From the NCBI RefSeq assembly GCF_041435335.1, contig NZ_CP108430.1, positions 4,136,501-4,200,500 of the forward strand: a stretch of DNA of 64,000 nucleotides, written 5' to 3'. Under the pieces are notes generated by a model that made no database searches, was not told where the DNA came from, and worked only from the letters and a program-made list of their open reading frames with translations. Both the position numbers and the translations under genes were made by a program. This document shows, one piece after another, positions 1 to 14,502 of the stretch (position 1 is its first letter; every line of letters starts with the position of its first letter). The DNA is from Streptomyces sp. NBC_01283 (lineage in GTDB: Bacteria > Actinomycetota > Actinomycetes > Streptomycetales > Streptomycetaceae).

Positions 1-348
1 GGTGAAACGAATCCGGACGTGGTCGCCCAGGGCATCCTGGCCACGCTCGAACCCGATCCCATGCGTGACGTGACCTGGCTCGATCTGCCCTGCGGGCCCG
101 CGGTATCGGCGATCACCTTCCGTCAGCTGCTGATCGACAGCCGGTACACGAAGAGCGGCCGGGACGAAGAGCTGGTGATGGGCCAGATCCAGGTGCACAT
201 CCCCTTCTCGACCGGCCCCTATACGGCGGTCATCACCCTGGACACAGCCTCCGTGGAACAGTGGGAGGAGTTCACGCACGGCATGGCGGGCATCGTCGGA
301 TCGGTGGAATTCCCCGAACTGTCGGACGCGGAATCGCAGCCCGTCTGA
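1..348 (+). CDS. Unrecognised protein, 5' end outside window
   Basis: The reading frame is open from the first base of the window, so the visible part is a C-terminal fragment of about 115 residues. The first possible start inside the window is a GTG at 19, but no ribosome binding site precedes it. The fragment looks like a compact soluble alpha/beta domain, with alternating hydrophobic strands such as PYTAVITLDTAS and no membrane segment. It lies upstream, on the same strand, of the duplicated family at 417-2497 and the membrane proteins at 2508-6162. That suggests one functional group with the type VII-like genes. I do not recognise the family. Confidence 0.6.
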   Translation, partial: GETNPDVVAQGILATLEPDPMRDVTWLDLPCGPAVSAITFRQLLIDSRYTKSGRDEELVMGQIQVHIPFSTGPYTAVITLDTASVEQWEEFTHGMAGIVGSVEFPELSDAESQPV

Positions 349-416
349 AGAATCGAGTGCCCGGCCGAGCCACCGCCCGGCAAGGCCGACTTCCTCAATG
401 GAAAGACGACGTACTG

Positions 417-1307
417 ATGGACTGGTACCCCAGCCCCGAAGAGGACGTACTCCTCCGCACGGCGGCCAAGTTCGCCACAGGTATGGCGCCGGCCGTCTCC
501 GGCTCTCGCTGGTTCCGCGACCCCGAGCGCAAGGACATCCAGGAGGAGTTGCAGGGCTGGCCCCCGGGCCCCGCCTACGAACTGCGCTCCGCCGGGGACA
601 AGGCGGCCCGCCGCACGGGCCGCGCACTGCTGGTCGGCATCCCCATGGTGGCGAACATCATCGCGAACTTCGGCGGAGCCGCGGGCACGCCCCTCGGTGA
701 GGTCCCCGTCCGGGGCAGGCCCCAGGAGCCGGAGAACGAGGTGCAGGACTTTCCCGTCATGTGGGCCGCCCCCGGCACCCTCGCCCGCACCGTCCCCTGG
801 CAGCTGGACCCCGCACGTCGCCCTGAGGGGTACGCCACCGACCTGGTCCTGACCGACCGGCGGCTGCTCTTCCTGGGCACCCGGTGGGGCACCCTCGAAA
901 AGGCCGAGGAGCTTGCCGAGTTTCCCCGGGACTCCATCGCCGAGGCACGGCAGATGAAGTTCAGCGAGATCAACGCCGACGTCCGCCTCACCTTCACCGA
1001 CGGCTCATGGGTGCGGCTCTTCACGGGAACGCCCGACAGCGCCGAGCGCCTCGACCAAGTACTCAGCGGCAAGGTCAAGCTCCTGGCCGAGAGCGCGCTC
1101 TCCGAAGGGCAGCGGGAACGAGTGGCGCGGTTCATGGCCGACCTTCCCAAGACCGCGCACCCCCCCACCTGCACGGTGCTGCGCAGCGGCATCGTCCTGG
1201 TGGAGTCCCGCGTCTCGGTCCGGGCGGGGTCGGGGATCTTCGAGACCCACTCGATCTTGATGGATGACGCGGGCAGCCCGGCGGAGCCGCTTCCCGGTGA
1301 CCTCTGA
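417..1307 (+). CDS. Unrecognised protein, paralogue of the 1494-2165 product
   Basis: About 296 residues. The ATG at 417 is chosen because the paralogue at 1494 begins with the same DWYP sequence; the open frame extends further upstream (to 261) but overlaps the preceding gene. The protein shares long blocks with the next gene: an N-terminal FATG..P.V.G.R.FR segment, a central PENEV.DFPV.WAAP block, and a LDPARRP.GY...LVLTDRRL segment that reads like a small beta-rich (PH-like) domain. Its last ~75 residues have no match in the 1494-2165 product, but resemble the separate protein at 2162-2497. No signal peptide or membrane segment is seen. Function is unknown; position links it to the type VII-like island. 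Confidence 0.7.
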   Translation: MDWYPSPEEDVLLRTAAKFATGMAPAVSGSRWFRDPERKDIQEELQGWPPGPAYELRSAGDKAARRTGRALLVGIPMVANIIANFGGAAGTPLGEVPVRGRPQEPENEVQDFPVMWAAPGTLARTVPWQLDPARRPEGYATDLVLTDRRLLFLGTRWGTLEKAEELAEFPRDSIAEARQMKFSEINADVRLTFTDGSWVRLFTGTPDSAERLDQVLSGKVKLLAESALSEGQRERVARFMADLPKTAHPPTCTVLRSGIVLVESRVSVRAGSGIFETHSILMDDAGSPAEPLPGDL

Positions 1308-1493
1308 GTAGCCGGCGGCCTCTGAGCGAACGGTGACCTCTGAAACGACTGCCTGAGTGGACCCCGGTCGCCGAGATCACACCAACCGGAGTTGGAGCTG
1401 GGCGGGTGGTCCGACGCGGCAGCGCACTGAGCGCCGGTGTACGAGGCAGCCGCGCCGCACGGAGCGGCCGTGACCTGAGAGGACTTGAGGGCT

Positions 1494-2165
1494 GTGGACT
1501 GGTATCCACCCCAGGGCGAGACGCTGCTCATGCGTGTCAACGTCGCCTTCGCCACTGGGTGCGCCCCGAAGGTCGCGGGACTGCGTTCCTTCCGGGGTGC
1601 CGAAAGGCAGGACATCGAGGGCGAACTGGCGGCCCAGGGCTGGCCGTCGGGCCCCGCCTTCGCCGTACGGGGGAAGGCCGACAGGGCGGGTGTACGCGCC
1701 GTGGACATCGCCTTGCTCGGCATCCCACGACTGCTCAACATGGTCGCGAACGCAGGCGGCCCGAGCGGCGCGCCCCTCGGTGATCCGCAGGGCGCGGGGA
1801 AGCCGCAGGAACCGGAGAACGAGGTCGAGGACTTCCCCGTCATCTGGGCCGCGCCGGACACCACGGCGCGAACACTGCCCTGGCAACTGGACCCCGCACG
1901 GCGCCCCAAGGGGTACCGAACCGAAATCGTGCTGACCGACCGCCGCCTCGTCGTACTCGGCGTGGAGCCCTCGGCCGGCCTGGCCCCGGCCCGGGAGCTG
2001 TGGGACCTGCCCAGGGAGAGGGTGGCTGGAGCCGAGCGGATGACCTTCTCCGAAGGCGGCGCCGATGTCAGGGTCAGGTTCAGGGACGGCTCCTGGACAC
2101 GCTGGAAGACCGGCGACGCAGCGAAGCTCGTGGCCCGGCTCAACGCTGAGGACGAAGACCGATGA
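1494..2165 (+). CDS. Unrecognised protein, paralogue of the 417-1307 product
   Basis: About 223 residues. The GTG at 1494 is chosen because a GAGAGGA site sits 10 bases upstream and the first residues (DWYP) match the start of the 417-1307 product. A TTG at 1485 is in frame but too close to that site. The body repeats the paralogue's blocks, including GWPSGPAF, PENEVEDFPVIWAAP and the LTDRRLVVLG segment. The stop codon overlaps the ATG of the next gene (ATGA at 2162-2165), so the two are translationally coupled. No catalytic motif or membrane segment is visible. Confidence 0.7.
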   Translation: MDWYPPQGETLLMRVNVAFATGCAPKVAGLRSFRGAERQDIEGELAAQGWPSGPAFAVRGKADRAGVRAVDIALLGIPRLLNMVANAGGPSGAPLGDPQGAGKPQEPENEVEDFPVIWAAPDTTARTLPWQLDPARRPKGYRTEIVLTDRRLVVLGVEPSAGLAPARELWDLPRERVAGAERMTFSEGGADVRVRFRDGSWTRWKTGDAAKLVARLNAEDEDR

Positions 2166-2497
2166 GCGAGTTCGTCCAGCACCTCGGTGAGCTGCCCGAA
2201 ATCGTCTCCCTGGAGTCCTTGACCACCGCCCAGCGGATGGCGGTCATGCCCTTCGCCGCCGCACACTCGGCCGCCGGTACGCCTCTCGTGAGCCGGCGGC
2301 CCGGCGGTGATTTCCACGTCGCGATCCGGTCGTCGGACGGCGTCAGCCCGGATCACGGACTCTGCCAGGGCTTGCGCGACATGGTCATGGGGCCCGACGG
2401 CCAGGAGATCAAGGACCCGCGGATGGCCGGCTCCCTCGTCCCGCCCCGCAACAGCACCGCCACGCCCCCCATGGAAACGCCACCGTCGCGACAGTAA
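2162..2497 (+). CDS. Small unrecognised protein, coupled to upstream gene
   Basis: 111 residues. It starts at the ATG that overlaps the stop codon of 1494-2165, which argues for translational coupling. The segment around residues 18-27 (ESLTTAQR) resembles ESALSEGQR in the C-terminal extension of the 417-1307 protein. The 1494 and 2162 genes together may therefore correspond to the single longer 417 gene. The last 20 residues are proline- and threonine-rich and probably disordered. No family was recognised and the comparison is by eye only. Confidence 0.6.
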   Translation: MSEFVQHLGELPEIVSLESLTTAQRMAVMPFAAAHSAAGTPLVSRRPGGDFHVAIRSSDGVSPDHGLCQGLRDMVMGPDGQEIKDPRMAGSLVPPRNSTATPPMETPPSRQ

Positions 2498-2507
2498 AGT
2501 GCGCCCA

Positions 2508-4808
2508 ATGAGTGACGGGGCGGGACGGGCGGGCCAGGGAGCGGCTGCTGTGGGCGTGCACGTATCTCGGGTGAGCTACGTGGATGCGTCTCGTGCCAGC
2601 TACGTGGACGTATCTCGCGCGAGCTCTCGCGGGCCTCGCCTCCTCGCGCTGCTCGGCGCCCTCTGTTTCTCTCTTCTTCTCATCGGCGGCGGCTTCGGCT
2701 CGGCTTCAGCCAACGCCGCCGGGCGAGCGTCGGTGGCCACCCCGGCCTCCCGGGACGTACCACCACAGGACCGCACCAGCGCCCCCACCCAAGCCTCCTC
2801 CCTCGCCGAACTCCTCCGCGGCAACCCGGTCTACGTCACCGACCAGCTCCCCCGCGAAATCCCCCGGTCCTCCGCCCCCGAGTTCGCGAAGCTCGCCAAG
2901 CGGACCGGTGTGCCGACCTACGTCCTCGTACTGCCCGATCAGGGGGCCGACCCCGAGCGGCTGCTCGCGGCCGTGCATGACCGGCTGGGGCGTGACGGGT
3001 TGTACGTCCTCGTCGACGACATGGGCGTCGCGGGTGCCACCGCCTTCGGAGTGCGGGCACCCGCCGATGACGCGTCGACCGTGGCGCTCTATGAACTTCC
3101 TTACGACGCGGGCCCGTTGCTCAGCTTCGAGCGGTTCACCGACGTCATCGCCCTGGGCGGCAAGAAGGCCGCCGAGCGCGCGGACACGGCCCGCGAGGAA
3201 CACGAACGCGCCGGCGACGACGTGCCGGAGATGCACATCGATCCCGTCGACCGTGACAACCAGTCGTTCGTCACCGGGATCACCCTCACCGGCGTACCAC
3301 TGCTGATCGTCTGTGTCAGTCCGTACGCTCGTCGCTGGTGGCGGCGTCGTCGGGGTCACCCCGCAGCGTCGCCGGCATCGGCGGCAGTCGTCGACCGCGA
3401 GGTGCCCGTCGAGGCCGACAGGCAGGGGTCGGCTCCGCGCCGCCCCACCCCCCGTCGCCTCGAAGCCGCCGCCGCCGTCCTCGCCGCGGCGGCGATCGCC
3501 CTCGGCGCCACCCTCGTCTTCGACCAGAAGACGTCCAGCGCCGCCCCGGCACCCATCGCCTCAGACCTGTCGAGCCGCGTCGAACGTGTCGCCGACGGAC
3601 TGCGCGAGAGCGGCCCCATCTACAGCGATCCCGAGAGCCCGCACCCGCTGGACAGCGCGCAGACCCGTGAACTCAGCGACCGGATCAAGAAGTTCGACCG
3701 TGGGCCCGTGTTCGTCGCCCTCGTCCCGCAACTCACCGAGGACGAGTCCGAGGGTGAGCCCGAACTCTTCCTGGAAGCCGTCCGGCAGAAGATCGGGGCC
3801 AAGGGCGAGCGCGGTGTCTACGTGGTCGCCGATCCGCTGGGCGGCACGATCGACGTCGTCACGTACGACGTACGCGTCGACGCGGACCTCGTCGGCTTCG
3901 ACCTCTCCGACGCGATCCGCTACGGCGATGACGACGACCGCTCCACCGACCACCAGCTCGGCAAACGGCTCGACGCCCTCATGACGCTGCTCGACAAGGC
4001 GCCGCGCACCGACCAGCCGGAGACCTCCTCGCTCGGCATGGACGACGCGGCCGACCCCGTGGAGGAGAACGGGCTCTCGCCGCTCTTCTCCGGTGACTTC
4101 TGGCCGGGGCTCATGGTCGGCGCGGTGGTGGCCGGTCTGGCCTTCGGGCTCGTCGCCGCGCTGCTCGGCATCCTGGGTCGCGCCGTGCCAAGCCTGCGGC
4201 GGTCGCGTGCGGCGGCGGCGCCCCCGTCCGCCGACACCTCCTTCCAGGCTCCGCCGGACCCCTCCCGCGACTACCTGCGCCGCACGGCACGCGACGAACT
4301 CGACGCCCTTGGGCGGGAGTTCGACCCGGACGCCGCGATCCGGTCGTCCGTGCGCACCCGCGTGTGGGACTGCCTCGACACCGCGACCCTGCTCGTCGAC
4401 CGCGACCCCGACGGTCACGTCGACGACGACGCCACGCCCGCCGACCTCGCGGCGGCCGTCGTCCTCGCGCGGGCGGGCCGGGCCGCGCTCGCCGGCATCG
4501 ACAAGCCCGACAAGCCCTGCTGCGCTCTCAATCCGCTGCACGGGCCTGCCACGGGGTGGCGCGACGCCCTGTGGGCGCCGGAGGACCAGCGGCTTCGCAC
4601 CATCCCGGTGTGCGCGGAGTGCCGCGTCCTCGTCGGGGTGCAGCCGCGCCTCGCGTACACGCTCCGGCTGACGATCCCCGGTACGGGAAGCGGTGCGGGG
4701 CGCGGCGAGCGTGTGCCGTACGAGGAGGTGTCGGGGCCGCTGTCCGCCGCCCGCGACGGGATCCCTCAACTCATCCGCAAGGTAAGGGAGTACGCCGGTG
4801 TCCAGTGA
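2508..4808 (+). CDS. Multi-pass membrane protein, two outer domains and cytoplasmic Cys/NPLHG domain
   Basis: About 766 residues from the ATG at 2508; the open frame extends upstream only through the preceding gene. Layout: basic N-terminus; hydrophobic segment at about residues 45-62; first extracytoplasmic domain (VYVTDQLPREIP onward); membrane segment with an RRWWRRRRG stop-transfer patch; another membrane segment (LEAAAAVLAAAAIAL); second outer domain related to the first; last membrane segment (GLMVGAVVAGLAFGLVAALL); and a cytoplasmic tail. The tail contains C-x2-NPLHG followed about 22 residues later by CAEC, a likely metal site. The stop overlaps the next gene by 11 bases. The next gene product has one such outer domain and the same tail, so this protein looks like a tandem duplication. 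The outer domains are remotely TPM-like, which is unproven. Confidence 0.72.
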   Translation: MSDGAGRAGQGAAAVGVHVSRVSYVDASRASYVDVSRASSRGPRLLALLGALCFSLLLIGGGFGSASANAAGRASVATPASRDVPPQDRTSAPTQASSLAELLRGNPVYVTDQLPREIPRSSAPEFAKLAKRTGVPTYVLVLPDQGADPERLLAAVHDRLGRDGLYVLVDDMGVAGATAFGVRAPADDASTVALYELPYDAGPLLSFERFTDVIALGGKKAAERADTAREEHERAGDDVPEMHIDPVDRDNQSFVTGITLTGVPLLIVCVSPYARRWWRRRRGHPAASPASAAVVDREVPVEADRQGSAPRRPTPRRLEAAAAVLAAAAIALGATLVFDQKTSSAAPAPIASDLSSRVERVADGLRESGPIYSDPESPHPLDSAQTRELSDRIKKFDRGPVFVALVPQLTEDESEGEPELFLEAVRQKIGAKGERGVYVVADPLGGTIDVVTYDVRVDADLVGFDLSDAIRYGDDDDRSTDHQLGKRLDALMTLLDKAPRTDQPETSSLGMDDAADPVEENGLSPLFSGDFWPGLMVGAVVAGLAFGLVAALLGILGRAVPSLRRSRAAAAPPSADTSFQAPPDPSRDYLRRTARDELDALGREFDPDAAIRSSVRTRVWDCLDTATLLVDRDPDGHVDDDATPADLAAAVVLARAGRAALAGIDKPDKPCCALNPLHGPATGWRDALWAPEDQRLRTIPVCAECRVLVGVQPRLAYTLRLTIPGTGSGAGRGERVPYEEVSGPLSAARDGIPQLIRKVREYAGVQ
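2562..2629 (+). repeat. 24 bp tandem repeat inside the start of the 2508 gene
   Basis: A 24 bp unit beginning GTATCTCGGGTGAGC occurs at 2562-2585, again at 2586-2609 with a few changes, and partly from 2610. In the reading frame it encodes near-repeats of SYVD.SRA just before the first membrane segment. The repeat may be an expansion of the N-terminal tail, or may mark that translation begins further in. Confidence 0.6.
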
Positions 4809-6162
4809 CGCGAAGCGCGCCCTCACGACGGCGTGCGTCGCCCTCACGGCCCTCGCCGCCCTCGTGACCACGGCGCTCCCGGCCGCCGCGCAGGCACCCG
4901 GAGCGCCGACACCGACCCCGGGCGAGAAGGTCGCCGACGCGTTGCGCGAGTCACCGGTGTACGTCGATCCCGCGTACGCCGGTTCGGTGCCTCCCGCCCG
5001 CCAGAAGCAACTGGTACGGCAGATCGAGAAGACCGGGCTGCCCATCAAGGTCGCCCTGGTGCCGATCGTCCAGGGCGACGCGTACGACGGCGAGGCGGAT
5101 GCCTTCGCGGAGGTCGTGCGCGACCGTGTCGACCGGCGCGAGCTCATCCTGGTCACCGGCGGGGACAGGTGGAGCGGGAACCTCAACGGCTACGAGTGGC
5201 CGGACGACAAGCAGCAGGCCCGCGACGCGGTGGGCACGGTCGGCTTCCTGGACGAGTTCAAGGACGCGGGGCTCGCGGCGCAGACGGAGAAGGCGATCGA
5301 GCTGATCGCGGAGGGCGACGGCACGAAGGCGTACGAGGACGCCACGGAGCATCTGCGGGACGGCGACGACGGTGACGACAACGGGAGCGGGAGCCTGCCC
5401 CACCGCCCGGCGGGCTCGGACGAGGAGAGCGGTCCCTCCTGGCTGCTGCCGGCCGGCATCGCGGTCGCTGTCGCGCTGGCCGCCGCCGGTCTCTTCGTGG
5501 GCGTACGTCGCCGGGGGCGCGGCCGGCCGAACCGGTACCCCAGCGCGACCGGCTCCCCCTTCGCCCACCCCCAGGCGGTGTTCGCGGCGGCGCGTACCGC
5601 CGACGAGACGGCACTGCGACGCCAGACGGAAGCGGAAGTGCTCGCGCTCGGCGAGGCGATCCAGGCGGCCGACACGTCAAGTCCCGGCATGCAGAGCGCA
5701 CTTGATGCGTACGCGGCTGCGGGCACGGTACTCGACGCCGCGCGCGGACTGCCCGACCTGGCAGGAGTGCTCGCCCTCGTCACGTCGGGCCGCGACGCCC
5801 TGGAGGGCACGGTCTCGCCCCTCCCCCTCTGCTTCTTCAACCCCCTGCACGGCCGCGCCGAACTCCGCATCCGCTGGCGCCCACTGGGCCGCCGCGACCA
5901 GCTGCACGTGGCCGCCTGCGAGGCGTGCGTGGCGGCGGTACGGACCCGCCGCGCACCCGAGGTACTCACGGACGACCTCGACGGACGCACCGTCCCGTAC
6001 TTCGAGGTACCGGCCGACCGGAGCGTGTGGGCGGCCACGGGCTACGGCTCGCTGCTGAGCGACACGAGCGGAACAAGCGAGGCGAGTGGCACGAGCGGCA
6101 CGGCCGACACCGGGCTCGCGGGGCGCGTGGGGCGGGGGGACTTCTCGCGGGGGCGTGGGTAG
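4798..6162 (+). CDS. Membrane protein with single outer domain and cytoplasmic Cys/NPLHG domain
   Basis: 454 residues from a GTG that overlaps the end of the previous gene by 11 bases. The N-terminus is a Sec-type signal or anchor (ALTALAALVTTALPAAAQA). It is followed by an outer domain of about 150 residues that matches the outer domains of the 2508 product (KVADALRESPVYVDP here, ERVADGLRESGPIYSDP there). A membrane segment (LLPAGIAVAVALAAAGLFVGV) precedes an RRRGRGR patch. The cytoplasmic tail holds CFFNPLHG and, 21 residues later, CEAC. After that both proteins share a VPY.EV stretch. The extreme C-terminus is Gly/Ser/Thr-rich. The role is not known; the pairing suggests a membrane complex. 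Confidence 0.72.
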   Translation: MSSDAKRALTTACVALTALAALVTTALPAAAQAPGAPTPTPGEKVADALRESPVYVDPAYAGSVPPARQKQLVRQIEKTGLPIKVALVPIVQGDAYDGEADAFAEVVRDRVDRRELILVTGGDRWSGNLNGYEWPDDKQQARDAVGTVGFLDEFKDAGLAAQTEKAIELIAEGDGTKAYEDATEHLRDGDDGDDNGSGSLPHRPAGSDEESGPSWLLPAGIAVAVALAAAGLFVGVRRRGRGRPNRYPSATGSPFAHPQAVFAAARTADETALRRQTEAEVLALGEAIQAADTSSPGMQSALDAYAAAGTVLDAARGLPDLAGVLALVTSGRDALEGTVSPLPLCFFNPLHGRAELRIRWRPLGRRDQLHVAACEACVAAVRTRRAPEVLTDDLDGRTVPYFEVPADRSVWAATGYGSLLSDTSGTSEASGTSGTADTGLAGRVGRGDFSRGRG

Positions 6163-6178
6163 GCGGCCGGAACAGAAC

Positions 6179-6224
6179 GACCCGGCCCCCGTCGCGACGA
6201 AACCGTCGCGACGGGGGCCGGGTC
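6179..6224. terminator. Strong bidirectional hairpin
   Basis: Perfect 21 bp inverted repeat (arms 6179-6199 and 6204-6224) with a four-base AAAC loop. It lies between the convergent genes ending at 6162 and 6238, and can stop transcription from both sides. Confidence 0.9.
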
Positions 6225-6237
6225 ACAGGCCGAGGGC

Positions 6238-6543
6238 TCAGCCCTTGCCCTTGACGCCCCTCGCGAGGTCGTCGTCCAGGTCCTCGTACGCCTTCGCGGC
6301 GCTGGTCAGGAACTTGCCCATGCCCGTGAGGCCCTCGATGGTGTCCTTGGCGCCCTTCTTGAACTCCTTGAAGGAGTCCTCGAAGGCCTGCGAGCCCTTG
6401 CGAGTCGTGTAGCCGTTCTTCACCAGGTTCTCGATGAAGCGCTCAAGAGCGTCGAGCTTCTCATCGATCTTGTCCTTGGCGTCGTTCAGCTTGCCCGCCG
6501 CGGTCCGCATCTCCTCATATGTGATATCGGCGTCTTTGGCCAT
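6238..6543 (-). CDS. WXG100-like (ESX) small secreted protein
   Basis: 101 residues, the usual size of the WXG100 family, predicted as a helix-turn-helix hairpin. The first helix is rich in K, E and D (AAGKLNDAKDKIDEKLDAL). The turn reads NGYTTRKGSQAFED and lacks the canonical W-x-G. The second helix ends with AYEDLDDDLA, which contains the YxxxD signal used for type VII export. The gene is divergent from the FHA/FtsK ATPase gene at 6854, the expected motor for such a substrate. Family assignment rests on size, composition, the C-terminal signal and context. It could be a chaperone-like partner rather than the cargo. Confidence 0.8.
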   Translation of the reverse strand: MAKDADITYEEMRTAAGKLNDAKDKIDEKLDALERFIENLVKNGYTTRKGSQAFEDSFKEFKKGAKDTIEGLTGMGKFLTSAAKAYEDLDDDLARGVKGKG

Positions 6544-6853
6544 GTGGCTTCACATCCAATCCAACTCGCCGCAGGGCCATCCCCCTTGGCTCCTCAGTGC
6601 GGGCCGCTCGAAGGCCGTGTGGCCGTTCGTGCGATCTTCCGCTCTTGGGTCAGCAGCTTACGGGTGGGGCAGAAGTGAGCACACCCCGGTTGAGTCACAG
6701 CTCTGCTATGAGCTCATGCACAGCCCGTTGCCTGCGGGAAGGGTGGAGCGGCTATCGTCACAGGCACTGTGGACAGCCTCACAGGCACTGTGGATTTGCC
6801 GCTGCGACCGCGTTCCGGAAGCGGTCGAAAAGGGGCTTATGGGGAGGACGATC
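6544..6853. other. Divergent promoter region between WXG-like gene and ATPase gene
   Basis: 310 bp without a convincing gene. The open frame running through it from 6434 is the upstream extension of the ATPase gene and overlaps the WXG-like gene on the other strand. The notable content is the pair of palindromes at 6758-6794. The GGGGAGG at 6841-6847 is the ribosome binding site for the GTG at 6854. Confidence 0.6.
6758..6794. promoter_or_regulatory. Two tandem identical palindromes, likely operators
   Basis: The 16-mer TCACAGGCACTGTGGA occurs at 6758-6773 and again at 6779-6794. Each copy contains the palindrome CACAG-GCA-CTGTG. The 21 bp spacing is two helical turns, so a dimeric regulator could bind both sites on one DNA face, about 60-95 bp upstream of the ATPase start codon. 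Confidence 0.6.
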
Positions 6854-9800
6854 GTGCGCCTGACTCTGACCGTCGTCGATCCGCTCGGCGGCGCCAACGC
6901 CGATGTCGTGCTCGACGCCGATCCTGAGTCCTCCGTGGGGGACATCGCCAAGGAGCTGGCCTCGCACGTGGGGTACAGCGGCGGCGACGCCCAGATCATC
7001 CCCATCGGCGGGCATCAGCTCCAGCCAGGCACCGGCCAGGGCGGTGCGCCGATCGTCTTCGTGGACGGGTATCCCATCGATGCCGCCGCGACCATCGGCA
7101 CCTCCCCGCTGCGCGAGGGCGCCGTCGTCAGCCTGCACGATCCGGCCGGCTGCCTGCCCGGCGAACCCACCGGCCTGGTCGAGCTGCGCGTCGCGGGCGG
7201 GCCCGTGGCCGGCGCAGTGCACCGCCTCGGGATCGGCCGCTACGACATCGGCAGCGGACCCGCCTCGTACATCCGCATCGATGATCCGGAACTGCCCGCG
7301 CGCGCCCTGACGTTGTCAGTTGCAACCGATGGCACCTGCCAAGTCGCCGTACATGGGGACATAGACGGCGTGACCATCGAGGGCAAACCCTTCGGCGAAG
7401 TCGATTCGACCGAAAGCCGCGAAAGCGGCGACAATGGTGACAACGGCGCGAAGGGCAAGAAGAGCAGGAAGAGCAATAAGGGTAAGAAGGGCAAGAAGAG
7501 CGAGAAGCGGGGCGGCGGCAATCGCGGGGAACGGGGCAATAAGCGCGACAATCCCCGTGACAAAGGCGAATGGCCGCTCGGTGCTCAGATCGCCATCGGC
7601 AATACCCTTCTCGAACTCGACCGTTATGCCCCGCCCAATGCCGCACTGAAGTGGTCCGAGGACGGATCCGGTCTCGATTACAACCGGCCGCCCCGACTGC
7701 GCCCGCCCGAGCGGCAGACCAAATTCAAGCTGCCCAATCCGGTACGTGATTTCGAGGCCAGGCCGCTGCCCTGGCTGATGGCGCTCACACCGCTCGTCGG
7801 TGCGCTCGTATCGGTGATGATCTTCCAGCGCTGGTACTACCTGATCATGGCGGCGCTGAGCCCGCTGATCCTCTTCGGCAACTACTTCATGGACAAGAAG
7901 CACGGGCGCAAGTCCCATGCCAAACAGGTCAAGGAGTACAACGAGCACAAGGAGCGGATCGAGAGGGACGCCCAGGAAGCCCTCGTCGCCGAGCGGCTCG
8001 ACAAGCGGCAGGCCATCCTCAGCCCGGCGGGGATCCTCTCCCTGAGCACCGGGCCCCGTACGCGGCTGTGGGAGCGGCGGCGCACCGACGAGGACCATCT
8101 GCTGCTTCGCGTCGGCACCGGGCGGCTCGACTCCGAGGTCGTCCTCGACGACCCCGAGCAGGACGACCACAAGCGCGAGGTCACCTGGAAGATCGAGGAC
8201 GCCCCCGTCGCGCTCTCGCTGCGCAAGCTCGGCGTCATCGGCATGGCCGGGCCCGGCGACTCCGCGCAGGCGCTCGGCCGCTGGGCGGTCGCGCAGTCCG
8301 CGGTGCTGCACAGCCCGCTGGACGTCCAGTTCTATGTGCTGACGGAGAACTCCGCGCGCGAGACCTGGGACTGGACGCGCTGGCTGCCGCACGCGCGGCC
8401 CTCCGGTGCGCAGGACGCCAACGTGCTGATCGGGACGGACGCCGAGACCGTCGGCTCCCGCATCGGCGAGCTGACCCAGATCCTCGCCGCCCGCCAGAAG
8501 GCCGCCAAGGAGAACAACAACCGGCAGGGCGGTGCCTCCTTCGGCGACCCCGACATCGTGGTGGTCTGGGACGGCTCACGGCGCCTGCGGTCCATGCCCG
8601 GTGTGGTGAAGCTGCTGCGCGAAGGACCCGCCGTGTCCATGTTCGCGCTCTGCCTCGACGCCGAGGAACGGTTCCTGCCCGGCGAGTGCCAGGCCGTCGT
8701 GATCGCCGAGCCGCGGCCCGAGGAGATCAGCCTCCCGGCCCGGCCCGCGCCCGGCGGCGGCCAGGCCCCCGTCCCGCCCGCCCCCGGCGGCTTCCCCTCC
8801 TTCCAGGCCTGGCACTCCGCCGAGCCCGACGACAGCGAGCAGAACGCCGAGAAGCCCCTCGAACTGCGGCTCCGCGTCGAGCAGACCGGCGCCGCCCGCA
8901 TCCGTTCCGTACGCCCCGACTTCGTCTCGCCCGCCTGGTGCGGGCGGCTCGCCCGCGCCCTCTCGCCGCTGCGGGACATCAGCGGCGAGACCGAGGACTC
9001 GGCGCTGCCCGGCTCCAGCCGGCTGCTCGACGTGCTCCAGCTGGAGCCGCCGACGGCCGACCAGATCACCGCGCGCTGGCAGGTGAGCGGCCAGTCGACG
9101 ATGGCCGTCATCGGTGAGTCGTACGACGGTCCCTTCGGCATCGACATGCGGCGCGACGGACCGCACGGCCTGATCGCCGGTACGACCGGTTCCGGTAAGT
9201 CGGAGCTGCTGCAGACCATCGTGGCGGCCCTTGCCGTCGCCAATACGCCCGAGAACATGACCTTCGTCCTCGTGGACTACAAGGGCGGTTCGGCGTTCAA
9301 GGACTGCGTGAAGCTGCCGCACACCGTCGGCATGGTGACCGACCTCGACGCCCACCTCGTGGAGCGGGCCCTGGAGTCGCTGGGTGCCGAGCTGAAGCGG
9401 CGCGAGCACATCCTGGCCGCCGCCGACGCGAAGGACATCGAGGACTACCAGGACCTCGTACGCCGTGATCCCTCGCACCCGCCCGTGCCCCGGCTCCTCA
9501 TCGTCATCGACGAGTTCGCCTCCATGGTGCGTGACCTGCCCGACTTCGTGACGGGCCTGGTGAACATCGCCCAGCGAGGCCGTTCGCTCGGCATTCACCT
9601 GCTGCTCGCCACCCAGCGCCCGAGCGGTGTCGTGTCACCCGAGATCCGCGCCAACACCAACCTCCGCATCGCCCTGCGCGTGACGGACGGCGCGGAGTCC
9701 AGCGACGTCATCGACTCCCCCGAGGCCGGCCACATCTCCAAGAGCACGCCAGGACGCGCCTACGTACGCCTCGGCCACGCCTCCCTGGTCCCCTTCCAGT

Positions 9801-11611
9801 CCGGCCGCGTCGGTGGCCGCAGGCCCGGCGCCACCGACCCGGCGCTGCTCGCGCCGTGGGCGGGTCCGCTCGGGTGGGAGGACCTGGGCCGTGCCGCGCT
9901 GGTGAAGCCCAAGGCAGAGGCGCGCGAGGAGGAGGAGATCACCGACCTCAAGGTCCTCGTGGACGCCGTGCGCGACGCGAACGCGACGATGGGCATCCCC
10001 GCCCAGCACAGCCCGTGGCTGCCCGCGCTCTCCGAGACGCTCCAGCTCGACGAGATCCCGCTGCCCCCGGCGAGCGACAAGCCGGGCGCCCTCGCCCCGG
10101 CTCCGTACGGCCTGGAGGACATCCCCTCCGACCAGGCGCGCCGCCCGGTCGTGGTCAACTTCGAGACCTTCGGGCACCTGCTCATCGGCGGCGCCCCGCG
10201 CAGTGGCCGCTCGCAGATCCTGCGGACGATCGCGGGCTCCATCGCCCGCACGCACTCCTCCGCCGACGTGCACCTCTACGGCATCGACTGCGGCAACGGC
10301 GCGCTCAACGCCCTGACCCGGCTTCCGCACTGCGGCGCCGTCGTCAGCCGTAACCAGACCGAGCGCGCGGTGCGTCTGGTCACCCGCCTCAAGGGCGAAC
10401 TGACCCGCCGTCAAGATCTGCTTGCCGACAAGGGCTTCGCCGACATCGGCGAGCAGCGGGCCGCCGCGCCCGAGGAGGAGCGGCTCGCGCACATCGTCGT
10501 GCTCCTCGACCGCTGGGAGGGCTGGCTGCCCACCCTCGGCGAGTACGACCACGGCGAGCTGACCGACGAACTGCAGGCGATGATGCGCGAGGGCGCGAGC
10601 GTCGGCATCCACCTGGTCATCACCGGTGACCGCCAGGTCCTCATCGGCCGCATGGCCTCGCTCACCGAGGACAAGTACGGCCTGCGGCTCGCCGACCGCT
10701 CGGACTTCTCGATGCTCGGCATGAACGCCCGCAAGGTGCCGGAGGAGATCCCCCCGGGCCGCGGCTTCAAGAACGAGCACGGCACGGAGACGCAGTTCGC
10801 GCTGCTCGCCGAGGACTCCACGGGCCAGGGCCAGGCCGCGGCGATCTCCGAGATCGGCGAGGCCGCCGCCGCCCGGGACGCGGACGTGCCGCGCTCGCGC
10901 AAGCCGTTCCGCGTGGACAGCCTGCCCAGCCGCATCAACTTCGCCGACGCGTGGGAGATGCGCGACCCGGACGCCTCGCGCTCCAAGCTCTGGGCGCTCG
11001 CCGGCATCGGCGGCGACGACATCATGGGCTTCGGCCCCGACCTCGCGCAGGGCGTCCCGACGTTCGTCGTCGCGGGCCCCGCCAAGTCCGGCCGCAGCAC
11101 GACGCTGATGAACCTGGCCCGGTCCTATCTCACCCAGGGCGTACGGCTCGTCATCGCCGCCCCGCGGCCGTCTCCGCTGCGTGAGCTCGAGGGCCAGGAA
11201 GGTGTCCTGAAGGTCTTCAAGGACGACGACATCGAGAGCGACGACTTCAAGGAGGTCGTCGAGGACGCGTCGCCCGAGGACCCGATCGTGTGGATCGTCG
11301 ACGACGGCGAGGTCCTGGAGGACTGCGACGCCGAGCGCGAGTTCAAGCGCCTCGTGCAGCGGGGCTCCGAGCGGGGCCTCGGGCTCATCATCGGCGGCGA
11401 CGAGGAGGAGGTGTGCGGTGGCTTCTCCGGCTGGCAGGTCGAGGCGAAGAAGGGCCGCCGCGGCATCCTGCTCTCCCCGCAGGACTCCTCCAGCGGCGAA
11501 CTGATCGGCATTCGTACGACCCGGAGCATGGTCGGCGGGCCGATCGCACCGGGCAAGGGACTGCTGTACACGGGCAGCGGGGAGCCGGTCACGGTCACGA
11601 CGCCGATGTGA
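6854..11611 (+). CDS. eccC: Type VII secretion ATPase, EccC/EssC-like with FHA domain
   Basis: About 1585 residues. The GTG at 6854 is preceded by GGGGAGG at six-base spacing, better than the ATG at 6839. Order: N-terminal ubiquitin-like segment (1-95); FHA-like domain (about 100-265) interrupted by a very Lys-rich insert near residues 190-240; two membrane segments (about 306-346); then three FtsK/SpoIIIE-type ATPase domains. The first has a full P-loop (GTTGSGKS, 776-783) and Walker B (LLIVIDEF). The second (GAPRSGRS, 1113-1120) and third (GPAKSGRS, 1408-1415) replace the P-loop Lys with Arg. FHA plus FtsK in one chain resembles Firmicute EssC; mycobacterial EccC lacks FHA. It would drive export of WXG100 proteins such as the 6238-6543 product. 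Confidence 0.85.
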   Translation: MRLTLTVVDPLGGANADVVLDADPESSVGDIAKELASHVGYSGGDAQIIPIGGHQLQPGTGQGGAPIVFVDGYPIDAAATIGTSPLREGAVVSLHDPAGCLPGEPTGLVELRVAGGPVAGAVHRLGIGRYDIGSGPASYIRIDDPELPARALTLSVATDGTCQVAVHGDIDGVTIEGKPFGEVDSTESRESGDNGDNGAKGKKSRKSNKGKKGKKSEKRGGGNRGERGNKRDNPRDKGEWPLGAQIAIGNTLLELDRYAPPNAALKWSEDGSGLDYNRPPRLRPPERQTKFKLPNPVRDFEARPLPWLMALTPLVGALVSVMIFQRWYYLIMAALSPLILFGNYFMDKKHGRKSHAKQVKEYNEHKERIERDAQEALVAERLDKRQAILSPAGILSLSTGPRTRLWERRRTDEDHLLLRVGTGRLDSEVVLDDPEQDDHKREVTWKIEDAPVALSLRKLGVIGMAGPGDSAQALGRWAVAQSAVLHSPLDVQFYVLTENSARETWDWTRWLPHARPSGAQDANVLIGTDAETVGSRIGELTQILAARQKAAKENNNRQGGASFGDPDIVVVWDGSRRLRSMPGVVKLLREGPAVSMFALCLDAEERFLPGECQAVVIAEPRPEEISLPARPAPGGGQAPVPPAPGGFPSFQAWHSAEPDDSEQNAEKPLELRLRVEQTGAARIRSVRPDFVSPAWCGRLARALSPLRDISGETEDSALPGSSRLLDVLQLEPPTADQITARWQVSGQSTMAVIGESYDGPFGIDMRRDGPHGLIAGTTGSGKSELLQTIVAALAVANTPENMTFVLVDYKGGSAFKDCVKLPHTVGMVTDLDAHLVERALESLGAELKRREHILAAADAKDIEDYQDLVRRDPSHPPVPRLLIVIDEFASMVRDLPDFVTGLVNIAQRGRSLGIHLLLATQRPSGVVSPEIRANTNLRIALRVTDGAESSDVIDSPEAGHISKSTPGRAYVRLGHASLVPFQSGRVGGRRPGATDPALLAPWAGPLGWEDLGRAALVKPKAEAREEEEITDLKVLVDAVRDANATMGIPAQHSPWLPALSETLQLDEIPLPPASDKPGALAPAPYGLEDIPSDQARRPVVVNFETFGHLLIGGAPRSGRSQILRTIAGSIARTHSSADVHLYGIDCGNGALNALTRLPHCGAVVSRNQTERAVRLVTRLKGELTRRQDLLADKGFADIGEQRAAAPEEERLAHIVVLLDRWEGWLPTLGEYDHGELTDELQAMMREGASVGIHLVITGDRQVLIGRMASLTEDKYGLRLADRSDFSMLGMNARKVPEEIPPGRGFKNEHGTETQFALLAEDSTGQGQAAAISEIGEAAAARDADVPRSRKPFRVDSLPSRINFADAWEMRDPDASRSKLWALAGIGGDDIMGFGPDLAQGVPTFVVAGPAKSGRSTTLMNLARSYLTQGVRLVIAAPRPSPLRELEGQEGVLKVFKDDDIESDDFKEVVEDASPEDPIVWIVDDGEVLEDCDAEREFKRLVQRGSERGLGLIIGGDEEEVCGGFSGWQVEAKKGRRGILLSPQDSSSGELIGIRTTRSMVGGPIAPGKGLLYTGSGEPVTVTTPM

Positions 11612-11640: not shown

Positions 11641-13365
11641 TCAGTCCGCGCGGGAGAGGCGGGCCTCCGGATTGCCCGACTCGGCGTTCTCGGAGAGGTA
11701 GAGGAGATCGTCGCCCTTCGGGCGCAGCCGCACCGTGTGCGTGTTCTTCGTGCACTGTGCGGCGCTGTCCGCCTTGCCCTTGCCCCGGGCCACGATCTCC
11801 TTGCCCGACACCGACTTCAGGACGAGGTCGACCGCGCAGACTCCGCCCAGCTGGTCGGTCTGCGTCATCACCGCGAAGCGTTCGCCGACCTTGCCCCGCC
11901 CGACCTCCAGCCTGAACGTGCCCATCGGGACGGCGCCGTTCGCCGCGACCGCCTGGCCCTCCCAGCTGCCGCGGTAGGAGGCGGGGACCTCGTCGCCCGC
12001 CTGGTCCGCCCCGTCCCCGGGCTGCTGTCCGCTCGACGTCGCGGCCGGGGGCTGCGCGCCCGCGTCGCTCGACTTGTCGTCGTTCCCCGGCAGCAGGCCG
12101 AACACGAAGACGGACCCGACCGTCACGGCGGCGAGCGCGCCCGCGACTCCCAGGACGAGCGTGCAGCTGACCTTGCGTCCCCGCCCATCGGGGCCACTGG
12201 GCGTGGAGGTCGCGGCGGCCGAGAAGGTCACCCGGCCGGGCGGCCCCGACGGGCCTGACGTCTGTGTGGGGACGTACGCGGCCGAGGGCGAGGAGACAGC
12301 CGGCACCGGCGCGTACGAGGGGTCCGGCGGGCCGAAGCCGCCGCTGCCCTGCGGCACTTCACGCCCCGGGGCCCCTCCCGCGGATGAGCCCACCACCGAC
12401 ACGGACCCGCCCACCACCGAGCTGCCGAACGGCACCGGCCCCGAAGGCTGTTCCGCGGCCCCCGCCCCGTCCGTCTCCAGGTCCAGGATCCGCACCGCGC
12501 TCCGGCTGACCCGCTCGACCAGCGGACCCGGCAGCCACCCGGCCGCCACCAGACTGTTCGCGCCCGCGGGGGCGAGCCTCCGGGCGATCTCCTCCGGCGA
12601 GGGGCGCGCGCCCGGCTCCTTGGCCAGGCAGGCTCCGGCGAGCTCCCGCAGCTCCCCGTCCAGCGCACCGAGTTCCGGCTCTTCGTGTACGACCTTGTAG
12701 AGCAGCGAGGCGGACGAGTCACCCGGGAACGGCGCCGTCCCCGTCGCCGCGAACACCAGGACCGCACCCAGCGAGAAGACGTCCGCGGGACCGGCGACCC
12801 CCCTGCCGAGGATCTGCTCCGGCGACATGTAGCCGGGCGAGCCGACCGAGACCCCGGTCGACGTGAGCGAAGCCGTGCCGTCCGTCGCCCGTGCGATGCC
12901 GAAGTCGATGAGGCGCGGTCCGTCCATCGTGAGCATCACGTTCGACGGCTTGACGTCGCGGTGGACGAGCCCGAGCCCGTGCACATGGGCGAGCGCCTCG
13001 GCCAGCCCCGCCACGAGCACGCGTACGGAATGGGCGGGGAGAGGGGAGAGGTCGCGCACCGCGTCCGCGAGCGAAGGGCCCGCCGCGTACCCCGTGGCCA
13101 CCCACGGCACCGACGCCTCCGGGTCCGCGTCGAGGACCGGCGCGGTCCAGTCACCGCCCACCCGCCGCGCCGCGTCCACCTCGCGCCGGAAGCGGGCGCG
13201 GAACTCCTCGTCGAGCGCGAAGTGCGGATGGACGACCTTCACCGCGACCGTACGACCGCCCGAGCTGCGCCCCAGGTAGACCCGGCCCATGCCGCCCGAG
13301 CCCAGCCGGCCGAGCAGCCGGTAGGGCCCGATGGCGGTCGGTTCGCCGGGATCGAGCGGGTGCAT
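11641..13365 (-). CDS. Transmembrane Ser/Thr protein kinase
   Basis: 574 residues. The N-terminal Hanks-type kinase domain (about 12-270) shows the Gly loop (LGSGGMGRVYLG), the ATP Lys (VAVKVV), the catalytic loop HRDVKPSN, DFG (IDFGIA) and an activation segment SVGSPGYMSPEQ. A long Pro/Ser/Gly linker follows. One membrane segment (LVLGVAGALAAVTVGSVFVFGL) leads to an outer domain of about 130 residues containing two Cys and no PASTA repeat. The gene converges on the FHA-containing ATPase gene with a 29 bp gap. FHA domains bind phospho-Thr, so this kinase might act on the type VII-like system; that is inference. Confidence 0.9.
   Translation of the reverse strand: MHPLDPGEPTAIGPYRLLGRLGSGGMGRVYLGRSSGGRTVAVKVVHPHFALDEEFRARFRREVDAARRVGGDWTAPVLDADPEASVPWVATGYAAGPSLADAVRDLSPLPAHSVRVLVAGLAEALAHVHGLGLVHRDVKPSNVMLTMDGPRLIDFGIARATDGTASLTSTGVSVGSPGYMSPEQILGRGVAGPADVFSLGAVLVFAATGTAPFPGDSSASLLYKVVHEEPELGALDGELRELAGACLAKEPGARPSPEEIARRLAPAGANSLVAAGWLPGPLVERVSRSAVRILDLETDGAGAAEQPSGPVPFGSSVVGGSVSVVGSSAGGAPGREVPQGSGGFGPPDPSYAPVPAVSSPSAAYVPTQTSGPSGPPGRVTFSAAATSTPSGPDGRGRKVSCTLVLGVAGALAAVTVGSVFVFGLLPGNDDKSSDAGAQPPAATSSGQQPGDGADQAGDEVPASYRGSWEGQAVAANGAVPMGTFRLEVGRGKVGERFAVMTQTDQLGGVCAVDLVLKSVSGKEIVARGKGKADSAAQCTKNTHTVRLRPKGDDLLYLSENAESGNPEARLSRAD

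Positions 13366-13509: not shown

Positions 13510-14502
<993 letters not shown>

Follow-up and report, generated by a model that had tools for sequence, protein, structure and literature searches.

Which proteins would carry cargo across the membrane at a locus that pairs an FHA-bearing, FtsK-type ATPase with a WXG100 protein and has no EccD nearby? This question is raised by a stretch of the 9.59-Mb genome of Streptomyces sp. NBC_01283, C1:4136501-4200500, whose full 64,000 nucleotides constitute the window analysed here. A preliminary description of its sequence proposed a minimal type VII-like locus built around this ATPase, and cast the membrane proteins encoded at 2502-6162, here called MemA and MemB, as a possible substitute channel or accessory parts. 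The first proposal held up and the second did not. The window probably contains the core of a minimal, EccD-independent type VII-like system for the export of predicted toxins. This core would consist of a membrane-anchored FtsK-type ATPase, carrying ubiquitin-like and FHA-like domains in cis, and a divergent WXG100 protein. Beside it would stand exchangeable cassettes of toxin type, composed of a WXG-like partner, an effector with a WXG-type or T7SS-signal head, PsbP/Mog1-fold proteins and, in this genome, a duplicated candidate immunity family.

The ATPase gene (6854-11611, plus strand) yields 1585 residues from GTG 6854 in a frame open to 11611, matching the FHA-plus-triple-FtsK protein of the preliminary description, with a weak Pfam signal for the FHA domain. 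An alternative ATG at 6839 would give 1590 residues; GTG 6854 matches the RefSeq start of the Streptomyces atratus relative. The protein contains a ubiquitin-like domain, a degenerate FHA domain, a hydrophobic segment (residues 305-323) and three FtsK-type motors, with hydrophobic segments located by a simple hydrophobicity scan and Walker motifs by pattern matching. Pfam FtsK_SpoIIIE is matched at 1.1e-60 over two stretches. With NCBIfam models, the ATPase scores 559.6 bits for EssC, 420 for EccCa and 326.5 for EccCb, below all three curated cut-offs (778.4, 509 and 346.6, respectively), and 64 for FtsK. As a control, the ESX EccC encoded elsewhere in the same genome (locus L008) scores 913 and 820 bits on the EccC models and 461 on EssC. 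An intact Walker A motif (GTTGSGKS, residue 776) and a LIVIDE motif (residue 882) are found in motor 1 only. The nearest solved chain is 4nh0, EccC of T. curvata. The counterpart in Streptomyces coelicolor is presumably SCO4508, beside mqnA (SCO4506).

The first 98 residues or so of the ATPase (6854-7147, plus strand) model as a ubiquitin-like fold. An AlphaFold2 model of residues 1-234 has a mean predicted local distance difference test (pLDDT) score of 57 (residues 1-98: blocks of ten 60-89, loop 36-44). Nearly all of its 50 listed PDB matches are ubiquitin-like or beta-grasp structures, mostly with a probability near 1; the best has an E-value of 7.4e-3, and a chain of the ESX-5 pore appears at rank 25. 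Pfam YukD is matched by 3 of 24 ATPase N-terminal rows (E <=0.1), at best with E 0.034. A degenerate FHA-like domain follows at residues of about 112-180 (7187-7393, plus strand). It is recognized weakly by the Yop-YscD_cpl model, at 3.1e-4 in the whole ATPase, and this model matches 22 of the 24 N-terminal rows, at best with 6.5e-9. The usual FHA recognition motif is GR...S[RK]xH, and by eye these residues are gone from the ATPase class in an alignment of the 24 N-termini.

The same order, ubiquitin-like domain and then FHA, is seen by eye in related proteins at loci L152, L153, L155, L158, L160 and L164, and at L009 of the window's own genome. The recognition residues are kept in L153, L155, L164 and L009 and lost in the class of the window and in L160; FHA models are matched by L152 and by L158 (scored as L184). 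The L009 protein (G000:C1:5620500-5640499, at 8084-11476, minus strand) is a third FHA-bearing FtsK-type protein encoded by this genome, has an intact FHA domain and lies beside two Ser/Thr kinases and apparent prfB and ftsE/ftsX genes; it may be a phosphorylation-controlled relative of the ATPase. In another actinobacterium, locus L184 (G204:C12:529001-549000) encodes, by eye, an ATPase relative together with an apparent PPM phosphatase, a Ser/Thr kinase and an FHA protein, possibly a phosphorylation-controlled version of the system. Genome G083 has one ATPase copy split over two open frames (G083:C1:3182489-3186321), 11 kb from a membrane pair, and a second, more distant copy elsewhere in a single open frame.

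Divergent from the ATPase lies the gene (6238-6543, minus strand) of a 101-residue protein ending in YEDLD. It matches PF06013 at 4.9e-15 and TIGR03930 at 46.1 bits, over the cut-off of 44.85, in line with the WXG100-like protein with a YxxxD tail that had been described. By pattern matching, the W-x-G motif is missing from this protein, which has Y...D at residue 86, and from 70 of its 71 called relatives. Conservation was assessed in the best 80 of 161 genome loci of the ATPase, with flanks of up to 10 kb per side (upstream flank below 10 kb in 11 of the 80), and in five plasmid loci selected among 15 listed matches. Genes in these 85 loci were called by a simple method based on codon-position G+C and then clustered; this method undercounts small genes and yields some fragmentary calls. 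The WXG100 gene is detected by tblastn in 78 of the 80 genome loci, the two misses being contig ends, and it is present in all five plasmid loci; by gene calls it is found in 71 of the 85, and 66 of these 71 copies are transcribed divergently from the ATPase gene. Many relatives end in FxxxD/E, and 27 of 71 have Yxxx[DE]. Effectors with WXG-type heads occur in 75 of the 85 loci and WXG-like partners in 64. Thirteen loci (eight genome and five plasmid) without mqnA, the chromosomal landmark next to the window's ATPase region, were set apart for comparison. Among the 45 largest clusters, none with hydrophobic segments, besides the ATPase and effectors, is found in more than 3 of these 13; the one that reaches three is a 240-residue family, Tad-pilus-like by eye.

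The system appears to be independent of EccD and of a canonical EccC. Within the genome, EccD exceeds its cut-off only at C1:1526395, in a distinct ESX cluster at a distance of 2.6 Mb, with a weak 58-bit match at C1:2783601; EccB, EccC and EccD are found together at the distant ESX locus L008. The preliminary description had likewise seen no such ESX parts at the ATPase locus, and no eccD lies just outside the window. By eye, no EccB, EccD or mycosin is seen in the 16 kb upstream (L007). EccD exceeds its cut-off in 184 of the 197 genomes sampled from the order. Among the 13 that lack it, 11 hold the ATPase at 51-84% identity, where an orthologue is the best copy at least 51% identical in a search of 33 genomes. 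None of these 11 gives a canonical EccC-type match, in a list complete to E about 5e-21. Three of them, G063, G101 and G083, consist of 1, 2 and 5 contigs, which makes assembly gaps an improbable explanation in these cases. A search of 19 genomes, this one included, finds no EssB, with a positive Bacillus subtilis control. Because the ATPase is present in 11 of 13 EccD-less genomes without canonical EccC, these two ESX parts are apparently not required by the ATPase system.

A wider sample is consistent with this. Nineteen genomes, chosen from 149 in the phylum with type VII-like ATPases, were screened for EccD: one is over the cut-off, one has a weak match and 17 have none. In 12 genomes from other genera the ATPase groups in this class, and all 12 lack EccD. 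A tree of 43 ATPase rows, midpoint-rooted and with Shimodaira-Hasegawa-like approximate likelihood ratio test (SH-aLRT) support only, splits 32 FHA-type rows from ten canonical EccC rows and one T7SSd-like row with a support of 99. Within it, 19 Streptomycetaceae-type rows form one group, also at 99, with a Curtobacterium plasmid copy inside.

The rival that survives best holds that the ATPase works with partners encoded elsewhere. These would be EccB and EccD of the genome's ESX system or else a membrane protein of Streptomyces without linkage to the locus, for which the widespread distant relative of MemB is a candidate. EccD is widespread in the order and this genome has its own EccB, EccC and EccD; MemB matches, many of them partial and weak, occur in 180 of 197 genomes, including G071 and G146, which have neither EccD nor the ATPase. 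Described type VII secretion systems (T7SSs) also have membrane partners (PMC11217815). Against this stand the 11 EccD-less genomes that hold the ATPase without a canonical EccC-type match, which disfavour borrowing of the genome's ESX EccD or canonical EccC, as well as the empty EssB search, and help from partners encoded elsewhere is on the unlikely side.

Another rival has the ATPase moving DNA or serving division or sporulation, with the WXG100 genes as passengers. It fits the FtsK/SpoIIIE family membership, the presence of several such proteins in the genome and the lack of a standard Walker A pattern in motors 2 and 3, but is very unlikely in view of the scores (EssC 560 and EccC 420 bits vs 64 for FtsK), the conserved and mostly divergent WXG100 gene, and the effector cassettes, some of which carry T7SS_signal and RHS repeats.

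MemA (768 residues; 2502-4808, plus strand) has a likely signal peptide and three more hydrophobic segments and matches no family. MemB (454 residues; 4798-6162, plus strand) has a likely signal peptide, one hydrophobic segment and a conserved Cys/His region. Described initially as two related multi-pass proteins, they are indeed related (41% identity over 71 residues, E 1e-9), but only MemA is multi-pass, with four segments of which the first is likely a signal peptide. Close MemB orthologues (E <1e-60) are present in 22 of the 197 order genomes, this one included, and adjoin the ATPase here and in G164. The MemB-bearing set numbers 23, again with this genome; G065, with a weaker match (4e-35), was kept and G099, with a 129-residue fragment, was dropped. 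An orthologous ATPase is held by 15 of these genomes and none is shown in eight. Stretches of up to 20 kb around MemB were fetched for 20 of 21 other genomes, two of them shortened by contig ends, and only that of G164 includes the ATPase.

Viewed from the ATPase, 4 of the 80 genome loci contain MemA or MemB in their flanks, and in none of the four does either gene adjoin the WXG100-ATPase pair. In Streptomyces longisporoflavus, the closest relative (ATPase 91% identical), an effector cassette and about 5 kb separate the membrane pair from the WXG100 and ATPase genes; in the other three loci the distance is about 8 kb. In Streptomyces justiciae (L083) and Streptomyces antibioticus (L120), the WXG100-ATPase pair has next to it a cassette whose effector is 73% identical to that of the window; MemA and MemB do not intervene, and a transposase-like frame stands between cassette and pair in L083. 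Close MemB is missing from 8 of the 11 EccD-less genomes that carry the ATPase. Among 72,556 plasmid records, MemB is matched by one, and the ATPase, at a length coverage of 80% or more, by 17. That MemA and MemB form a substitute channel or needed accessory has the slimmest chance of the readings weighed here, despite their adjacency in two genomes and a distance of 25 kb or less in 9 of the 15 genomes that encode MemB and the ATPase, and as a general channel the pair is largely refuted by its rarity at ATPase loci and by the eight MemB genomes without the ATPase. The co-occurrence that the preliminary description proposed to look for did not hold up, the family being found widely without the ATPase. 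From this distribution, the two proteins are best placed outside the conserved core, as neighbours and not parts. The shared neighbourhood in 9 of 15 genomes makes a side role possible in some strains, where the pair would be an occasional accessory.

In MemB relatives the hydrophobic segment is followed by the motif CFFNPLHGR ... CxxC, with little or no variation across 20 rows, and this Cys/His region looks like a metal site. Some databases label such relatives as TPM, a label rejected here: neither TPM nor another fitting family is among the Pfam matches of 20 homologues.

The head of the window's cassette is carried by the 16 kb upstream (L007), where a small partner gene (L007:14126-14452) is found along with an effector gene ending at L007:15638. 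This effector has overlapping hydrophobic segments at 233-274 and scores 22.4 bits on T7SS_signal (cut-off 27) and 21.1 bits on WXG100 (cut-off 27.3). By simple scan, the effectors in ATPase loci have a median of two hydrophobic segments. Four long effectors were scanned: all contain RHS repeats and three match T7SS_signal, one of them above the cut-off. An Ntox21 tip is present in one long effector, the second piece of an interrupted locus. Among three other effectors, taken from relatives, that of S. atratus exceeds the T7SS_signal cut-off and that of Curtobacterium matches WXG100 under the cut-off. Both the partner at L007:14126-14452 and a second one (L007:1067) are probably WXG-like, judging by size, make-up and clustering.

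At the left edge, positions 1-348 (plus strand) encode the 3' part of a 232-residue PsbP/Mog1-fold cassette protein whose gene begins 350 bases before the window. Proteins of 200-230 residues beside effectors fall into several families. A 75%-identical relative of the left-edge protein, L083:6401-7063, was modelled from 21 rows with a pLDDT of 85 and a predicted template modelling (pTM) score of 0.81. Its first PDB matches are MTC28, Tsi3 and PsbP, followed by Mog1 and LpqN, with EagT6 at rank 29. The best E-value of 2.1e-4 and template modelling (TM) scores of about 0.3-0.6 suggest a shared fold and no close kinship. By analogy, these cassette proteins may be chaperones for the effectors, the alternative being immunity. 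In type VI systems, one study places a PsbP/Mog1-like protein beside toxins as a possible adaptor (PMC3482391), and another has effector transmembrane segments stabilized by Eag proteins (PMC12881460).

Next to the left-edge gene is the duplicated family, whose copy a (299 residues; 408-1307, plus strand) and copy b (226 residues; 1485-2165, plus strand) are 56% identical over 207 residues, in keeping with the duplication first described. Copy a is a candidate immunity or accessory protein, and neither copy matches Pfam or NCBIfam. Of the 80 genome loci of the ATPase, all 18 that have a close effector relative (E <1e-90) contain the family, vs 4 of the 62 others, and the Fisher value of 2e-14 is overstated because the ATPase loci are related. 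This tie to the effector binds the family to the cassette and sets it outside the machine; its role is perhaps immunity. By eye, its C-terminal part (TDLVLTDRRLLFLG ... VRLTFTDGS) resembles a bacterial PH domain. The adjacent small gene (111 residues; 2162-2497, plus strand), on the cassette side, is weakly like copy b (27% over 99 residues, E 0.009) and has a match in 8 of the 80 genome ATPase loci.

Several points weigh against a minimal, EccD-independent export system. The search for partners elsewhere covered EccD, EssB and EccC-type ATPases. The tree was built without Bacillota EssC, is midpoint-rooted and places the T7SSd-like row by a long branch. The ubiquitin-like model has the mean confidence of 57 given above, with all PDB matches above E 0.001. 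The window's own effector stays under both the T7SS_signal and WXG100 cut-offs, its small partner matches no NCBIfam family, the second partner matches no WXG100 model and the effector of Embleya has no Pfam match. That MemB lies within 25 kb of the ATPase gene in 9 of the 15 genomes encoding both, directly adjoining it in this one and G164, also counts here. Finally, the ATPase loci are mostly from Streptomyces, so shared ancestry inflates the counts.

If the minimal system nonetheless operates, secretion might proceed as follows. The small partner would pair with the helical head of the effector, and together they would form the export signal. The PsbP/Mog1-fold proteins would shield the hydrophobic segments of the effector, as Eag proteins do in type VI systems, or else serve as immunity proteins. 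The WXG100 protein may dock on the ATPase via its tail, a hydrophobic residue followed by xxx-D/E. Motor 1 would hydrolyse ATP and drive the cargo out, while the fused ubiquitin-like domain would do in cis the work of the EccD domain or of EsaB/YukD. A further step, that the ATPase is itself the translocation channel and needs no partner like EccB/EccD or EssB/EsaA, is tentative and rather unlikely. Were it true, one membrane protein and one WXG100 protein would suffice to export polymorphic toxins, and PsbP/Mog1-fold chaperones, the Eag solution of type VI systems, would serve effectors with hydrophobic segments.

Which proteins make up the type VII channel has long been asked, and the systems described so far come with several membrane partners. 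A class whose ATPase bears its own ubiquitin-like domain, and which persists where EccD and a canonical EccC are missing from near-complete genomes, would provide a very small natural set of genes for asking what suffices for export. It is common in laboratory-tractable Streptomyces and comes with ready cargo cassettes. The PsbP/Mog1 fold, present in type VI Eag and Tsi3 proteins, would also extend to type VII cassettes.

On the other side of the ATPase lie a Ser/Thr kinase (11641-13365, minus strand; Pkinase 6e-37; hydrophobic segment at residues 403-421) and the menaquinone biosynthesis protein MqnA (13510-14418, minus strand; PF02621 5.8e-74). By gene clusters, MqnA is found in 60 and the kinase in 57 of the 85 loci; by tblastn, in 61 and 65 of 80, respectively. 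The kinase is found in 0 of the 13 loci without mqnA and is unmatched in four that have it (L092, L093, L123 and L127). A candidate role as a regulator of the TsdD type known from T7SSd was rejected because the kinase follows mqnA and the FHA domain is degenerate. The kinase is judged to be a syntenic neighbour of mqnA, outside the machine. Farther upstream of the window, Tad/Flp-pilus-like genes are seen by eye at L007:1438-8145, amid genes of WXG-like and PsbP/Mog1 type, and similar genes are found near MemA or MemB in L030, L031 and L034. Tad genes are noted next to T7SSg and T7SSh (PMC11217815).

Among described type VII systems, T7SSa (ESX) shares with the window a three-motor FtsK-type ATPase, a WXG100 protein and a ubiquitin-like domain, which in ESX belongs to EccD. 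It differs in that the window has no EccD near, its ATPase occurs in EccD-less genomes, and this ATPase falls under both EccC cut-offs. The ESX ubiquitin-like domain sits on EccD and touches motor 1 of EccC, while T7SSb has a free EsaB (PMC11217815). According to PMC1779556, YukD domains in actinobacteria invariably come joined to a membrane domain of 12 helices. T7SSb (Ess/Yuk) resembles the present system in the N-terminal FHA on its ATPase, which is degenerate too (PMC11217815), in a single WXG100 protein and in effectors with helical heads and small partners. In contrast to T7SSb, EssB is missing from all 19 genomes searched, the ATPase itself bears the ubiquitin-like domain that T7SSb supplies as a free EsaB, and the EssC cut-off is not reached.

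T7SSd, described from Olsenella and Bifidobacterium, comes from Actinomycetota hosts as well and shares the FHA-bearing EssC-type ATPase and core WXG100 protein; no stand-alone ubiquitin-like gene is reported for it, and an RHS effector lies near the locus (PMC11217815). T7SSd has its own kinase TsdD, TsdH, an envelope-spanning TsdI and an FHA domain with a conserved phosphothreonine site (PMC11217815). In the window, by contrast, the FHA domain is degenerate, the kinase follows mqnA and no envelope protein co-travels among the 45 largest clusters. On the EssC model, the T7SSd-like ATPase at L151 reaches 898 bits and that of the window 560. Types from T7SSc to T7SSj have been described, with no mention of Streptomyces in the main text (PMC11217815). 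Likewise, neither a fused ubiquitin-FHA-ATPase nor a two-gene core is described in the portions available of the open-licence literature in PMC.

Outside type VII, the PsbP/Mog1 fold predicted for the cassette proteins recurs in the Eag chaperones of type VI systems and in Tsi3, an immunity protein. The cassette proteins differ in their type VII context, their Gram-positive host and an identity of about 8-17% in the fold matches. On sequence evidence, then, the system lacks the tested marks of T7SSa (EccD and the EccC score), T7SSb (EssB and the EssC score) and T7SSd (the FHA site and a TsdD-type kinase), and it carries the two general marks of type VII secretion assessed here, a multi-motor EccC/EssC-class ATPase and a co-encoded WXG100 protein.

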